In this document: piece by piece, positions 425-57,932 of the stretch | Layout of the letters: the number at the start of each line of letters is the position of its first letter | Numbering within the stretch: the stretch's first letter is position 1 | Assembly: GCF_040436365.1 (NCBI RefSeq) | Contig: NZ_AP026369.1 | Location: forward strand, 496,001 to 560,000 | Direction of reading: 5' to 3' | Length of the DNA: 64,000 nt | DNA from: Hydrogenimonas sp. SS33 | Lineage (GTDB): Bacteria > Campylobacterota > Campylobacteria > Campylobacterales > Hydrogenimonadaceae | The notes under the pieces: model-generated | What the model was told of the DNA's origin: nothing | The model's input: only the letters and a program-made list of their open reading frames with translations | Database searches by the model: none | Translations under genes and position numbers: made by a program

Positions 425-429
425 AATAG

Positions 430-512
430 TCATTGGCCACTGGTCATTGGTCATTGGGAAAGAAAAACAAACCCCTCACTTCTCCCTTTCCGATTCCCGA
501 TTCCTGCATTCC
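430..512 (+). repeat. Two four-unit heptad arrays at a convergent gene junction
   Basis: Positions 430-457 are four 7-bp units of TCATTGG type (units 1, 3 and 4 identical; unit 2 CCACTGG). Positions 485-512 are four 7-bp units of GATTCCC type. Both fill the junction between the ribbon-helix-helix gene (+) and the small gene ending at 518 (-). The same TCATTGG words recur at 5875, 10471, 10868, 12431 (as TTATTGG) and 57858. Confidence 0.85.
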
Positions 513-5855: not shown

Positions 5856-5874
5856 AGGCGGACACTTTGGCATG

Positions 5875-5949
5875 TCATTGGTCATTGAGCATTTGTCATT
5901 GGGAGGGAGAGGAGACGCTTCCCAATGACCAGTTTCCAGTGACCAATGA
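5875..5949. repeat. Inverted pair of four-unit TCATTGG arrays with a 19-bp centre
   Basis: Four heptads of TCATTGG type (5875-5902) are followed by a G-rich 19-bp centre (5903-5921) and four heptads in inverse orientation (CCAATGA type, 5922-5949). The whole 75 bp is an imperfect palindrome. It occupies the only real gap in the minus-strand operon (HlyD stop 5955, MFS start 5855 or 5885), whose other junctions overlap by 4-14 bp. The arm layout equals the ends of the four-helix-bundle element at 10471-10896, so it may be its gene-less form. Confidence 0.8.
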
Positions 5950-5954
5950 CCATC

Positions 5955-9339: not shown

Positions 9340-10491
9340 ATGTCGAAAAAGCTCGGTACGCTGTTGCTCATCGTCATCGTTCTTCTTCTGGCGATCGTCG
9401 GATACCGCTACATCCATTTCAGGACGGCCCATGCCGTCAGCGATGCCGCCTTCATTCGGAGCGACCGCCTCTCCACCCTCGCCTTCAAAGTGGGCGGAAA
9501 AGTGGTAGAGATGACCAAGGAGACCAACGCTCCCGTCAGAAAGGGGGAGCTGCTGGCCAGAATCGATGCGGTCGATTTCCTCACCGCCAGAGACGAACTT
9601 CGCCACAAACTGCGGGCGCTTAGCCAAAAGGTCGAAGCGGCGAAGCTCAAAAGGGCGCGGCTGGAAAAGGTCCTCTCGATACGCAGCGAAATCTCCGGAA
9701 ACGATGTGGATTCCCTGCGCCAGAGCATTCTCGCCACCACGCTGAAGATCTCCGCGGCGAAGACCCGGCTCGCCAAACTGGAAAAAGACACCGCCCGCTT
9801 CGCCAACTTGCTTGCCAAACGGCTCATAGAGAGGGAAAAGTACGAAAACGTAAAAACCGAGCGCGATGCCCTGCGCCAAAATGTGGAAGCGATGGAAAAG
9901 GGGCTGCAGGCCGAGCGGGAAAACCTCAAAAAAGCGCAAAACGCCCTGAAACTTTCCAAAACCAATGAAAAGGAGATCGAGGAACTCGCCAAAAGCATCG
10001 CGGCGATGGAAGAGCAGAAGAATGCCCTCCGTGCCGCCATCGAAGATGTGACGCACAAGATCGGCTACACCGAACTCTACGCCCCCTTCGACGGCATCGT
10101 CGCCAAGAAGTTCTTCGACGCCCCCAAAGTGGTCAGGAAAGGGAGCCCCGTCTACGCCGTCACCGACCCCAAAGCGCTCTATTGCGAAGTGTTGCTGTCG
10201 GAGAAGAAGATGCACGGCGTCCATCCCGGAAACGCCGCGGAAATCACCGTCGACGCCATCGGGGACAAGAGCTTCAAAGGCCGCGTCGAATCGATCGCCC
10301 CCACCTCCGCCTCCACCTTCAGCCTCGTCCCCCGCGACATCGCCAGCGGAGAGTTCACGAAACTCGACCAGCGCTTCGTCGTGCGCATCAAACTGGAGGA
10401 GACCGACCCCCGGATGCGGGCGGGGATGGGGGCGTCGGTCGCAATCGCGCGTTCCCGCGAAGCGGGAGAGTCATTGGTCACTGGTCATTAG
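9340..10491 (+). CDS. EmrA/HlyD-family membrane fusion protein
   Basis: A 383-residue adaptor: N-terminal membrane helix (about 5-25), lipoyl half-motif (STLAFKVGGKVVEM), long coiled-coil hairpin (about 75-235), second lipoyl half (ELYAPFDGIVAKKF) and C-terminal barrel. Start ATG 9340 follows AAAGGA at good spacing; a GTG at 9298 lies inside the operator. The stop (TAG 10489-10491) and the last residues (about SLVTGH) come from the TCATTGG array, so the original end was probably just before 10471. It is the first gene of a tripartite efflux operon with the DHA2 MFS and TolC proteins downstream. Confidence 0.9.
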   Translation: MSKKLGTLLLIVIVLLLAIVGYRYIHFRTAHAVSDAAFIRSDRLSTLAFKVGGKVVEMTKETNAPVRKGELLARIDAVDFLTARDELRHKLRALSQKVEAAKLKRARLEKVLSIRSEISGNDVDSLRQSILATTLKISAAKTRLAKLEKDTARFANLLAKRLIEREKYENVKTERDALRQNVEAMEKGLQAERENLKKAQNALKLSKTNEKEIEELAKSIAAMEEQKNALRAAIEDVTHKIGYTELYAPFDGIVAKKFFDAPKVVRKGSPVYAVTDPKALYCEVLLSEKKMHGVHPGNAAEITVDAIGDKSFKGRVESIAPTSASTFSLVPRDIASGEFTKLDQRFVVRIKLEETDPRMRAGMGASVAIARSREAGESLVTGH

Positions 10492-10896
10492 TCATTGGGA
10501 ATGGCGAATATGAGCGAAAAAAGTTTGGGAAGTTTGGAAGTCTATCAAACATCATTGGCGTTGAGCGAGAAAGCTTGGAACGTTTACCTTTCCCTTCCTA
10601 AACAATTTCGTTTCGATATGGGAAGTCAATTTTTGAGGGCTATCGACTCTATCGGTGCCAATATCGCGGAAGGGTATGGCCGGTTTCACTACAAGGATAA
10701 AATCAAATTCTACCACAATGCGCGAGGTTCTTTATGGGAGGCGAAACATTGGCTCTATCTGCTCCATAAAAGGAATTTTCTGGAGCAGGAAACTTTCAAT
10801 CTAATCCTCGATGAACTCAACAAGGCCGGAAAGCGACTTAATCGGTTTATTACGAGCACGGGAGCCCCCAATGACCAATGACCAATATACCAATGA
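10471..10896. mobile_element. Candidate small element: inverted heptad arrays around a four-helix-bundle gene
   Basis: The left end (10471-10498) has four TCATTGG-type heptads. The right end (10868-10896) has four units in inverse orientation (CCAATGA type, with one extra base before the last). Between them lies a single gene for a four-helix-bundle protein. The unit splits the emrA and emrB-like genes, which in this operon type are normally adjacent. The array supplies the emrA stop, the emrB-like start and the stop of the inner gene. No transposase or target duplication is seen, so mobility is a hypothesis. Confidence 0.55.
10501..10881 (+). CDS. Four-helix bundle protein (23S rRNA-intervening-sequence protein family)
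   Basis: A 126-residue helical protein with the family hallmarks: early LEVYQTSLALSEKAWNVY helix, SQFLRAIDSIGANIAEGYGR in the second helix, then RGSLWEAKHWL. Relatives (TIGR02436-type) are encoded in 23S rRNA intervening sequences or stand alone, and the diversity-generating retroelement accessory protein bAvd shares the fold. The exact role is unknown. The start could be ATG 10501 or ATG 10510; the GGGA at 10497-10500 fits 10510 better. Both termini touch TCATTGG arrays, and the gene sits between emrA and emrB-like genes, which it does not resemble functionally. Confidence 0.85.
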   Translation: MANMSEKSLGSLEVYQTSLALSEKAWNVYLSLPKQFRFDMGSQFLRAIDSIGANIAEGYGRFHYKDKIKFYHNARGSLWEAKHWLYLLHKRNFLEQETFNLILDELNKAGKRLNRFITSTGAPNDQ

Positions 10897-12427
10897 CACG
10901 AAGAAATCTTGGGAGATTTCTTCGGCCGAAAGAGCAATATTCTCCATCATCGTCATGACCGGCGCTTTCATGGCAATTTTGGATACGACGGTGGTGGATG
11001 TCATCGTGCCCAAACTCACCGGGCCGTTGGCGACGGATATGTACGGGGTGCAGTGGATCATCACCAGCTATATGGTCGCCGCGGCGATCGCGCTGCTGAT
11101 CACCGAGTGGCTCATCAAGAATTTCGGTGCCAAGGCGGTCTTTCTGGGGGGTGTGGCGCTTTTTACAGGAGCCTCCTTTTTCTGCGGCATCTCGGGGTCG
11201 CTGGAGGAGATCATCATTTTCCGCATCATCCAGGGGATCGGCGAGGCGCTGATCATGGTAACGAGCCACATCATGATCTTCAGCTACTTTCCCCCCGAAA
11301 AGCAGGGGCTGGCGATGGGGCTTTACGGCCTGGGGGTCAGTTTCGCGCCGGCTCTGGGCCCCACGATCGGCGGTTACCTGACCGAATATTACAGCTGGCG
11401 GATGGTCTTCTTCATCAATGTCCCCGTCGGGCTTCTGCTGGTCATCGCCGGGCTGGTCTTTCTGCCGAAAGAGTCGATGTTTCAGAAGCTCAAGTTCAAT
11501 TTTATCAGTTTTTTATTGCTCTCTTTCGCCACCATCTCCCTGCTCATCATGCTAAGCCGTGGCCAGCAGCTCGGCTGGTTCAACTCCATCGAAATCGGCG
11601 TCCTGCTCCTGTGCACCCTCGTCGGATTCGCCCTCTATGCCCTGAGCGAACTCAACGCAAAAGACAGGCTCATCGACTTCTCCCTCTTCAAAAATCCGCT
11701 CTTCGCCAACGGGATGATGATCTACTTCTTCATCCTCGGCTTTTCGATGTACCAGTACTTCTATCTGCTGCCGGTCTACTACGAACATATCAAGATGCTG
11801 CCCACCCTCGACGCCGGTATCGCCGTCTTCGCCTTCGCCGTCTTCATCGGCCTCTTTTCACCGCTTGCAGGGATGCTCGCGGACAAGATCGGGGCGAAAA
11901 AAACGGTGGCGATCGCCGCTTTTTTCTATGTTGCCACCTCCCTATTCTTCCTGCCCACGCTCAACTACTACACGCCCCTGCACCAGGCGATGCTCATTAC
12001 GATTCCATTCGGTATCGGCATGGGGCTCTTTTTCGCGCCGGTGACGGTGATGGTCCTTCAGAACGCCCCGGGCCACAAAGGGGAGCTGGCGATCGTTCTG
12101 ATGGACTATTTCCGCTTTGTCGGCGGCAGTTTCGGCACGGCGCTGGCCACCAACAATATGGAATATTTCAAAAACCTCCATTTTCTACGCATGGAGGAGC
12201 TTCAGAATACGGAATATCTCGCATGGTTCCTCCAGCGCCTCCATGCCCTTTCGGGCCTGTCGATGGAGAGGATCAAGGCGGTCTTCGGCAACTATGAAGC
12301 GTTCATGAGTTACAACTACGGCTTTTACAACACATTCATGCATGCGGGATACTGGGGGCTGCTGGGGTCCCTTTTCGTGGTTCTGCTTTTCGTGAAAAAC
12401 CCGTTCAAAAAGGAGGTAGCGGTATGA
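10871..12427 (+). CDS. EmrB/DHA2-family MFS multidrug exporter
   Basis: A 518-residue, 14-helix exporter of the drug:H+ antiporter-2 family. It has MAILDTTVVDVIVP in helix 1 (motif D1), VQWIITSYMVAAAI, and GVSFAPALGPTIGGYL (motif C of exporters) in helix 5. The start ATG 10871 is inside the inverted heptad array and overlaps the end of the four-helix-bundle gene by 11 bp, so the first nine residues (MTNDQYTND) are array-encoded. The real fold begins at about SSAERAIFSI. With the HlyD and TolC genes it forms a tripartite pump, probably for hydrophobic compounds. Confidence 0.9.
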   Translation: MTNDQYTNDTKKSWEISSAERAIFSIIVMTGAFMAILDTTVVDVIVPKLTGPLATDMYGVQWIITSYMVAAAIALLITEWLIKNFGAKAVFLGGVALFTGASFFCGISGSLEEIIIFRIIQGIGEALIMVTSHIMIFSYFPPEKQGLAMGLYGLGVSFAPALGPTIGGYLTEYYSWRMVFFINVPVGLLLVIAGLVFLPKESMFQKLKFNFISFLLLSFATISLLIMLSRGQQLGWFNSIEIGVLLLCTLVGFALYALSELNAKDRLIDFSLFKNPLFANGMMIYFFILGFSMYQYFYLLPVYYEHIKMLPTLDAGIAVFAFAVFIGLFSPLAGMLADKIGAKKTVAIAAFFYVATSLFFLPTLNYYTPLHQAMLITIPFGIGMGLFFAPVTVMVLQNAPGHKGELAIVLMDYFRFVGGSFGTALATNNMEYFKNLHFLRMEELQNTEYLAWFLQRLHALSGLSMERIKAVFGNYEAFMSYNYGFYNTFMHAGYWGLLGSLFVVLLFVKNPFKKEVAV

Positions 12428-13734
12428 GGGTTATTGGTTATTGGTTACTGGTTATCGGTTTTTCCGTTACGAGTGCGCAGGCAGAGAGTTACAGAGATAT
12501 CATCGCCGGGGTAGATCGGGCGCTGGCGCTGAAGAGTGCCGATGCGATGGTGGAAGCGGCCGGGTTGCAGGCCGAAGCGGCGAAGGGGAAAAACCTCCCC
12601 TCCCTCGACGCCCATCTGGATGCCGTGCGCCTAAAAGACGACCCTGTGATGTATCTGCATTTCCCTCTGTTCCCGGCTCCTACCGGTGCGGTACCCATGG
12701 CGACCAAATCCCAATGGCACGGCGACCTGACCCTCTCCTACCCCCTTTTCACCGGCTTTGCCGTCACCGCCTCCATCGACAAAGCCTCCTACGAGCATGC
12801 CCTGGCGGCCCTGAAACGTGACGACCTCCGGCGCAACCTCTACCTGCAGGCGACCCGGCTCTACACCGCCGTCTATGCCGCGGGCAGGATTCTGGAGGCG
12901 CAGAAGAAGGCGAAAAAGGCGATGGACGACGCCTACAAAAAGGCGAAAGGGCTCTACGACAACGGCCTCCTCCCCCCGGCGGACCTCTACAATATCGAAG
13001 CGAAAAGATACGCCATCGAGGCGGAAATCACCGAATCCAAAAACCGCAAATCGCAGCTGCTCAACCGCCTCTCCTACCTTCTGGACCGTCCCGTCGAAAC
13101 CGCCGATGCGCCGGAAGCGGCCCAGTTCACTCTGCAGAAAAAGGAGATTCTTCAGACCGCCCTCACCTCCAGGGAAGATATCCGCGCTCTGAAAACTTCG
13201 CTGAAAGTCGACGAATCGCTGGAGAAGCTGGCCAAAAGCCGCTACTACCCCACTGTCGGGGTGGCGGCCGCGCTGAAAAAGCACGGCGACACCCTCCGCC
13301 TCAACGGGGACGGCTACACCAATGCCGACCAGAGCTACGTGGGCGCGACGATGTCGTGGAACCTTTTCGAGGGTTTCAGCGATGAAAAGAGGGTCGAAGC
13401 GGCACGAAAGAGGATTCTCGCTGCCAAACTCACACTTCGCGACTACGAAAAGCGGGTGGCGACGGAGCTGCGAAACGCCTTCCTCGATCTGTCCGCCATG
13501 CGCTCGAAACTTCTCAGCGCCCAAATGGAGGTGAAGGCGCGCAAGGAGTACTACAAACTCACCCTGGGCCGGTTCGAAAACCAGCTCGCAAGTGCCGACG
13601 AACTGAGCCGCGCCATCGCCGACCTGGCCGCCGCGCGGGCGAAGGTTTCGGCCCTCAAAAGCGAACTGTTCAACGAGAAAATGACCATTTTGCTGATGAG
13701 CGGACTGGAAAATTTCCGTAAATATTTCAGATAA
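12424..13734 (+). CDS. TolC-family outer membrane efflux protein
   Basis: A 436-residue outer-membrane channel protein with two repeats of long helices and short strands (outer membrane efflux family). The start ATG 12424 overlaps the MFS stop by 4 bp and follows a strong AAGGAGGT (12410-12417). The signal peptide (MRVIGYWLLVIGFSVTSAQA, cleaved near AQA-ES) is encoded in its first half by four TTATTGG-like heptads (12431-12458), so period-7 DNA gives the hydrophobic Val-Ile-Gly/Trp-Leu-Leu core. It serves the EmrAB-like pump and possibly the divergent ABC exporter, which lacks its own channel. Confidence 0.9.
   Translation: MRVIGYWLLVIGFSVTSAQAESYRDIIAGVDRALALKSADAMVEAAGLQAEAAKGKNLPSLDAHLDAVRLKDDPVMYLHFPLFPAPTGAVPMATKSQWHGDLTLSYPLFTGFAVTASIDKASYEHALAALKRDDLRRNLYLQATRLYTAVYAAGRILEAQKKAKKAMDDAYKKAKGLYDNGLLPPADLYNIEAKRYAIEAEITESKNRKSQLLNRLSYLLDRPVETADAPEAAQFTLQKKEILQTALTSREDIRALKTSLKVDESLEKLAKSRYYPTVGVAAALKKHGDTLRLNGDGYTNADQSYVGATMSWNLFEGFSDEKRVEAARKRILAAKLTLRDYEKRVATELRNAFLDLSAMRSKLLSAQMEVKARKEYYKLTLGRFENQLASADELSRAIADLAAARAKVSALKSELFNEKMTILLMSGLENFRKYFR
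12431..12458 (+). repeat. Four TTATTGG heptads encoding part of the TolC signal peptide
   Basis: Four 7-bp units (TTATTGG twice, then TTACTGG and TTATCGG) begin seven bases after the start of the TolC gene. The words are one base away from the TCATTGG arrays elsewhere in the window. Read in frame they give hydrophobic residues compatible with a signal-peptide core. Confidence 0.8.
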
Positions 13735-18741: not shown

Positions 18742-18818
18742 GCTGATGTAGCTCAGCCGGCTAGAGCACTTGATTCGTAATCAAGAGGTCGCGGGTTCGA
18801 GTCCCGCCATCAGCTCCA
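18742..18818 (+). tRNA. tRNA-Thr (anticodon CGT)
   Basis: A 77-nt cloverleaf. The acceptor arm GCTGATG pairs with CATCAGC. The D arm contains AGCTCAGCCGGCTAGAGC, and the anticodon stem CTTGA/TCAAG encloses the loop TTCGTAA, with anticodon CGT reading ACG. The T arm is GCGGGTTCGAGTCCCGC, the discriminator is T, and CCA is encoded (18816-18818). Its 3' 25 nt are duplicated 178 bp downstream. Confidence 0.95.
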
Positions 18819-18932
18819 CTTTCTTTACACATCAAATTTTTTCTTCCAAAAAATCAACCCTTGCCATTTGCCACCCGCTTCGCCCGACGTTCATGGCTTC
18901 GCTTCGCTCCGACCATGCCGTCGTGCGGGGCT

Positions 18933-18960
18933 AAAAACGCCAAGCAGTCGGCGTTTTTTT
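18933..18960 (+). terminator. Rho-independent terminator of tRNA-Thr
   Basis: The stem AAAAACGCC (18933-18941) pairs with GGCGTTTTT (18950-18958), with an 8-nt loop and a run of seven T. It is the first good terminator after the tRNA. Confidence 0.8.
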
Positions 18961-19097
18961 GACGCCCCTCCGGTTCGAGTCCCGCCATCAGCTCCACTTT
19001 CTTTACACATCAAATTTTTTCTTCCAAAAAATCAACCCTTGCCATTTGCCACCCGCTTCGCCTGACGTTCATGGCTTCGCTTCGCTCCGACCATGCT

Positions 19098-19122
19098 AAA
19101 AACGCCAGGCAGTCGGCGTTTT
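19098..19122. terminator. Second copy of the terminator hairpin
   Basis: AAAAACGCC pairs with GGCGTTTT around an 8-nt loop in the second repeat unit. It lies 15 bp from the stop of the minus-strand acyltransferase gene, so it may now terminate that transcript. Confidence 0.6.
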
Positions 19123-19136
19123 CTCTGCGCCCCTGT

Positions 19137-57857: not shown

Positions 57858-57932
57858 TTATTGGTCATTGGTCATTTGCCATTTGTCATTGGGAATCACC
57901 TTCCCACCTACTCACTCTCTCACCTTCTCACC
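57858..57932. repeat. Heptad array followed by octad array between glgA and glucokinase
   Basis: Five TCATTGG-type heptads (57858-57892; the first reads TTATTGG) run directly into five 8-bp units of TTCTCACC type (57893-57932). The segment contains a potential start codon of glgA and fills most of the gap to the glucokinase stop (57957). A short GCCGC/GCGGC hairpin follows near 57934-57946. Confidence 0.8.

Follow-up and report, generated by a model that had tools for sequence, protein, structure and literature searches.

A framed four-helix-bundle gene inside a drug-pump operon

The window, i.e., the whole stretch of 64,000 nucleotides analysed here, comes from the 2.25-Mb genome of Hydrogenimonas sp. 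SS33. It holds a 426-bp unit (10471-10896) composed of a small gene with an inverted heptad array on each side, located inside a drug-pump operon whose emrA-like gene, small gene and emrB-like gene follow one another in this order on the forward strand (Table 1). The best profile for the emrA-like product was the EmrA/EmrK model TIGR00998, with a score below the cut-off of that model, and the emrB-like product matched TIGR00711 (E = 3e-131). The initial annotation had described four inverted units on either side of the gene. This framing is real, with degenerate units: the left array reads TCATTGG TCACTGG TCATTAG TCATTGG (two of four exact) and the right array CCAATGA CCAATGA CCAATAT A CCAATGA, with three exact units, one altered unit and one extra base ahead of the last unit. 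The arrays also supply stop and start codons, as had been claimed. The third left unit holds the stop of emrA (TAG, 10489-10491), the first right unit the in-frame ATG of emrB (10871), and the second right unit the stop of the small gene itself (TGA, 10879-10881). The small gene starts with an ATG at 10510, and an alternative in-frame ATG is present at 10501. RNA structure prediction gave a terminal stem pairing the left and right arrays (z = -3.2 for the entire folded sequence). Many arrays adjoin a short hairpin that is rich in G+C and has the core GCGAAGC or GCAAAGC (e.g., GCGGCAAAGCCGC); one lies at 10451-10468 of the window, and others are found near arrays at loci L001, L004, L005, L010 and L019.

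Table 1. Coordinates of the genes, arrays and repeated elements (window positions, except for the last two lines, which refer to G000:C1).
Feature	Position	Strand	Support or remark
Gene-free TCATTGG array	429..457	+	
Gene-free inverted pair, TCATTGG-type (5874-5902) then CCAATGA-type (5922-5952)	5874..5952	.	
emrA-like membrane fusion protein gene	9340..10491	+	Final codons and stop within left array
Left heptad array, 4 units, TCATTGG type	10471..10498	+	Sequence, TRF
Four-helix-bundle gene (23S_rRNA_IVP/S23p family)	10510..10881	+	PF05635, TIGR02436, AlphaFold, Foldseek
Right heptad array, 4 units, CCAATGA, inverse of left	10868..10896	-	Sequence, TRF
emrB-like DHA2 transporter gene	10871..12427	+	First codons within right array
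Gene-free TTATTGG-type array, emrB/tolC junction	12429..12460	+	TRF
Gene-free TCATTGG-type array	57860..57892	+	TRF
Composite element copies (L153, L159, L161, L162)	about 172040-172400, 280980-281280, 338440-338760, 341190-341500		
Composite element copies (L174, L180, L183, L188)	about 640050-640280, 766150-766500, 835940-836260, 924430-924760		

The product of the small gene had been identified as a four-helix bundle like those of 23S intervening sequences and bAvd, and profile searches agreed, with matches to PF05635 (E = 4e-29; 101.3 bits against a curated cut-off of 33.8) and TIGR02436 (E = 2e-28; 98.6 bits against 24). Its AlphaFold model has four helices (pLDDT 92.8). Foldseek ranked 2GSC first (TM-score 0.90), followed by 2RLD (0.80) and then by Avd, the Avd chains of the retroelement complexes 4DWL and 8UB7 reaching about 0.75-0.78; the Avd equivalog model scored only 20.8 bits, short of its cut-off of 80. 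The entry 2GSC is XCC0516 of Xanthomonas campestris, and a later report, citing Lin 2006, describes the X. campestris protein as a homopentameric ring (PMC4990558). Solved relatives have five chains per entry. Arrays accompany most of the gammaproteobacterial relatives that are 47-65% identical to XCC0516. Proteins of the PF05635 family were found in 39 plasmid records. No family match occurred among 50,697 phage records, and a phage origin of the cassette was rejected on this ground. None of four conserved 23S motifs was present at any family locus examined.

The emr junction was then compared among relatives, where the initial annotation had asked for an empty site. Among 30 emrA loci of the order, 21 have an uninterrupted emrA/emrB junction (71-136 bp) and seven carry a family gene, while one has another insert and one lacks emrB; universal presence of the gene was thus not found. 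Genome G012 retains the full emrB start behind its insert, and the uninterrupted junction of its sister G040 is a clean empty site. Six of these seven genes form a related set, in which the remaining five are 56-67% identical to that of the window, and the words at the emr junction vary (in G005, GGCATTG to the left and CAATGCC to the right). Since these six genes are scattered on the emr tree, they may reflect gains, losses or a transfer of the operon; a single old insertion with later losses could account for them. The seventh gene, in G031, belongs to a different subfamily with different heptads and is best explained by an independent second insertion at this junction.

Matched inverted arrays around PF05635 genes

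Five PF05635 genes are present in the genome, every one of them set between inverted periodic arrays that have a word of their own: TCGTTGG, TCATTGG, about GTAGTGG, an 8-mer about GGTGAGAA, and about GAAAACT/GTGAAAA. Four of these words were among the commonest array words in the 1.26 Mb of the 2.25-Mb genome that was read as stretches. The family was detected in 29 of 60 relatives, mostly framed likewise, and scanning the GTDB species collection yielded 80 family loci in many phyla. Among the 77 of these whose flanks were long enough, the threshold for periodicity at lag 7 was passed by 33 upstream flanks and 35 downstream ones, compared with 2 of 141 control flanks about 1 kb away, and lags 5, 10 and 11 gave zero or one strong flank. 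For 50 of the 77 loci, the inverted match between left and right flanks surpassed the 99th percentile for swapped pairs. In nine further genomes, this match was above the 99% level of the null in 20 of 28 cases. A class-wide sample of gammaproteobacteria showed a strong lag-7 flank in 18 of 20 cases and a match above the null in 9 of 20, the swapped-pair null being high there (99% = 46) because several words resemble each other. The same framing was seen in six cyanobacterial plasmids.

When overlapping loci were deduplicated by protein, 156 distinct genes remained in the pooled set. Strong arrays were found on both sides of 85 genes, on one side of 43 and on neither side of 28, against none on both sides and 14 on one side for 143 far-flank controls. 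Several of the 28 genes without strong arrays under this strict score show visible weak or 8-mer arrays. A period of 7 scored best for 126 genes and a period of 8 for 22; most arrays (125 of 181) comprise four or five units. One locus (L278) has a period-6 array (TCGTTG), a rare departure from periods 7 and 8. The search of related genomes proposed at the outset therefore showed that inverted arrays recur around family members elsewhere, and framing by matched inverted arrays is a general property of PF05635 genes.

The genomic neighbourhoods of these genes are diverse. Well over 100 Pfam families, many with housekeeping roles, are represented among the neighbours, the operons are functionally unrelated, and most single junctions are rare. 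Junction specificity of the cassette was rejected given this diversity, and related arrays also occur elsewhere in the window; what stands of the cassette first proposed is a unit compatible with translation and with matched inverted ends, which is wider in distribution than had been supposed. At the 135 loci with a neighbour on both sides (taken as the longest open frames, not as curated genes), all three genes are co-directional in 116 and the family gene is antisense to co-directional neighbours in 4. Selection for expression could underlie this sense orientation, or else insertion could involve an RNA step. Some junctions are encountered repeatedly. HlyD-type secretion or efflux junctions harbour the family gene both on a Calothrix plasmid (L244) and in the window, and a family gene adjoining an HlyD gene is also mentioned elsewhere (PMC11637426). 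On the Anabaena plasmid pANA02 (L247, 2501-2869), cas6 and cas4 of a type I-D CRISPR locus flank a family gene with its arrays. Two groups of loci (L041, L056, L060, L104 and L252; L044, L045, L051, L058, L107 and L112) show related family genes recurring at the same junctions across genomes, and neighbour Pfam counts suggest sdhA/sdhB for one of the two groups. All five arrays of the first group have period 8, with unlike words.

The two ends of an element resemble each other far more than chance pairs do. The trinucleotide profile of a left array and that of the reverse complement of its own right array gave a median cosine of 0.76, compared with 0.15 for swapped pairs, and the own partner array ranked first in 41 of 92 cases. 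The strand that reads inward is C-poor, the left array having more G than C in 79 cases and more C than G in 10. At orthologous junctions, the word was replaced at both ends and the gene was retained: L001 carries TCGTTGG and L034 GGTGAGAG, with proteins that are 70% identical, and the words of L006 and L007 differ likewise. The two ends were more similar within an element than the same ends between species in all seven such pairs. This points, in a small number of pairs, to a concerted change in which both ends switch word together.

Several candidate explanations for the choice and the matching of words were rejected. A motif common to all words was one of them, as the information across elements (3.77 bits) only slightly exceeded that of the best shuffle (3.66 bits); with nearly no shared motif, the words give no evident sign of a single binding code across the family. 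Protein identity predicted word similarity weakly (Mantel r = 0.21), and the idea that protein lineage sets the period was dropped (Mantel r = -0.09). Selection for an RNA stem was likewise set aside as the reason for matching arms, since arm mismatches showed no excess of G-U (152) over A-C (191); pairing of the sense-strand RNA is apparently not what keeps the arms matched.

Gene-free arrays

Arrays without a gene are also common. With up to two mismatches, TCATTGGTCATTGG occurs 15 times in the window against 0.38 expected, a number reached by none of 100 shuffles, and the two-unit pattern has 394 matches in the genome against 19 for a reversed control. In the 1.26 Mb read, 97 arrays were found at lag 7 and about one at lags 4, 5, 10, 11 and 13. 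Neighbouring arrays there form 25 inward pairs and no outward pair, the words of the two arrays of a gene-free pair often being unlike, and genes of other kinds between strongly matched inward arrays were not found in these 1.26 Mb. Sampled relatives without the family had one array (A/T-rich) in 400 kb, compared with 13 in 360 kb for relatives with it, in samples that are small and of unequal base composition and that include two family-bearing genomes with none in 60 kb.

Individual arrays differ in their setting. The gene-free array that starts at 57860 is followed by an inverted 8-mer array (TCACCCTC) at 57896-57932. At the emrB/tolC junction, the TTATTGG-type array (12424-12460) forms the first codons of the TolC-like gene, encoding the residues MRVIGYWLLVIG, and supplies the hydrophobic start (MRVIGYWLLVIGF) of the likely signal peptide of the protein. 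Elsewhere in the genome, a repeated composite element of about 300 bp contains a TCGTTAG array, a GGGGCTTCGCCCC hairpin, a long GGGCATT array (up to about 14 units), a conserved core with TTGACA-like motifs and a C-rich array whose word varies by copy (ACTACCC, TCTCACT or TGCTCAC). The window also holds a tandem duplication at 18794-19134, with a 178-bp unit (89% matching) that starts with the tRNA-end-like GGTTCGAGTCCCGCC.

Relation to known elements and possible function

The closest counterpart of the unit is the intervening sequence of the Coxiella 23S rRNA, in which tandem GACAGAT heptamers precede the S23p start and the ends form a 28-bp terminal stem (PMC4990558). It encodes a protein of the same family, has nearly the same size (428 nt there, 426 bp here; PMC4990558) and shares with the window unit the inverted ends of about 28 bp and the sense orientation of the gene; the ends of the window unit are likewise predicted to form a terminal stem. 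The Coxiella sequence sits in rRNA, whereas the window unit lies between two protein-coding genes. Intergenic heptamer repeats have also been described. The heptad GGGAATC occurs in 186 patterns in X. campestris, most of which have four units; 70-75 pairs are convergent, and the role of the patterns is unexplained (PMC4692102). Beggiatoaceae carry intergenic TAACTGA heptamer repeats (PMC4679880), and the SPADE survey covers repeats of this kind (PMC6344855). These repeats share the period of 7 but, in the accessible portions of those reports, are not tied to the four-helix-bundle family. Across the open-access literature searched, two-sided matched heptad framing was absent as a rule of the family, and heptamers were linked to the family only for the Coxiella rRNA insert. 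We predict that the family gene XCC0516 is linked to the GGGAATC arrays of X. campestris. STRR heptamer repeats of cyanobacteria were reportedly described by Mazel in 1990, and the STRR2 word, reportedly TTGGTCA, is a rotation of TCATTGG.

Two other systems invite comparison. REPIN-RAYT systems similarly have scattered gene-free inverted pairs of short repeats beside a few gene-carrying copies, comparable with the 25 inward pairs in 1.26 Mb here. In those systems, however, RAYT acts as a catalytic transposase and each REP is one palindrome, whereas the window cassette has tandem arrays as its ends and a PF05635 gene as its only gene, with no transposase encoded. Avd of diversity-generating retroelements (DGR; 4DWL, 8UB7) has the same fold and is part of a reverse-transcriptase ribonucleoprotein in 8UB7, but the window cassette encodes no reverse transcriptase and its adjacent genes are emrA and emrB.

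We consider it the most probable reading, at slightly better than even chances, that the unit is a cassette akin to the 23S rRNA intervening sequences that occupies mRNA operon junctions, its ring protein recognising the arrays as matched ends. Such a cassette would consist of one gene and two ends, each of about four or five copies of a 7-bp (sometimes 8-bp) word and inverted such that the C-poor strand reads inward from either side. The protein would bind the arrays, perhaps with one unit per subunit, and would act as an accessory factor pairing the two ends, with other enzymes copying or homogenising them. The spread of cassettes and gene-free array pairs would then resemble that of an autonomous element and its miniature derivatives. 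By inserting in sense at gene junctions, the cassette would be expressed along with host operons at little cost to them, given the stop and start codons in its arrays, and the 23S rRNA intervening sequences would represent this element in its rRNA location. The framing is observed; binding, copying, mobility and mechanism are what we infer from it.

Other readings of the same arrays were weighed. The protein could instead be a non-mobile regulator of operon junctions, which would bind the C-poor array in the mRNA leader with one heptad per ring subunit and tune its own translation and the balance of the upstream and downstream genes, the gene-free arrays being its regulon. The strong sense orientation (116 to 4), stops and starts carried by arrays, arrays that track the presence of the family, and array lengths of four to five units that would suit a pentamer, as in the five-chain entries of solved relatives, all favour this idea. 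We nevertheless regard it as unlikely, because the operons are unrelated in function and most single junctions rare, most emr loci lack the gene, the word changes freely, and a simple leader-binding model has no need of the inverted right-hand copy. Less probable still is an mRNA intervening sequence, with arrays that pair in the transcript, a stem cut by RNase III, the gene removed from the polycistronic RNA and the matched ends kept by selection for the stem. The predicted terminal stem joining the arrays (z = -3.2, entire folded sequence), the sense orientation and the cutting of the Coxiella sequence by RNase III within its 28-bp stem (PMC4990558) agree with it, but arm mismatches lack the expected excess of G-U over A-C (152 to 191) and cutting would sever the operon mRNA without known rejoining.

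A neutral origin would have slippage-prone 7-mers pile up at junctions, with the gene as an old passenger and the matching as a product of functionless gene conversion. Variable array lengths, mutating units and the abundance of gene-free arrays are in line with it. Yet matched inward framing is specific to the family in the 1.26 Mb read and recurs in many phyla with unrelated words, array orientation is strict (25 to 0), and sampled relatives without the gene are nearly array-free, which makes this the least credible of the explanations, and in our view a very improbable one. For the cassette with matched ends, the evidence also cuts both ways. In its favour are the recurrent framing with ends that match and switch word together, the sense placement, the inward gene-free pairs, the near absence of arrays from sampled relatives lacking the family, the Coxiella heptamers and stem, the different subfamily at the same emr junction in G031 and the family proteins in 39 plasmid records. 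Against it count the 28 of 156 genes without strong arrays under the strict score, the six related emr-junction genes, which fit one gain with several losses, the lack of a phage match and nearly of any shared word motif, and the fact that no catalytic domain, target-site duplication or recent movement was demonstrated.

A broader proposal, which we put forward tentatively and at less than even chances, is that PF05635 genes and the intergenic heptad arrays of prokaryotes form one system and a new class of element. Its ends would be built from tandem copies of a 7-bp word that changes freely; the ring protein would recognise them, and both would be remade together, with copying perhaps via an RNA or reverse-transcriptase step, as suggested by the Avd-like fold and the sense-only insertion. 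With the link between PF05635 and the arrays, the common and unexplained 7-letter repeats of bacteria gain a first protein partner, and the family and the repeats each obtain a partner amenable to bench tests. The intervening sequences of 23S rRNA are recast as one site of a wider element. If true, the existence of such a class would explain at once these intervening sequences and the tandem repeat that is most abundant between prokaryotic genes.
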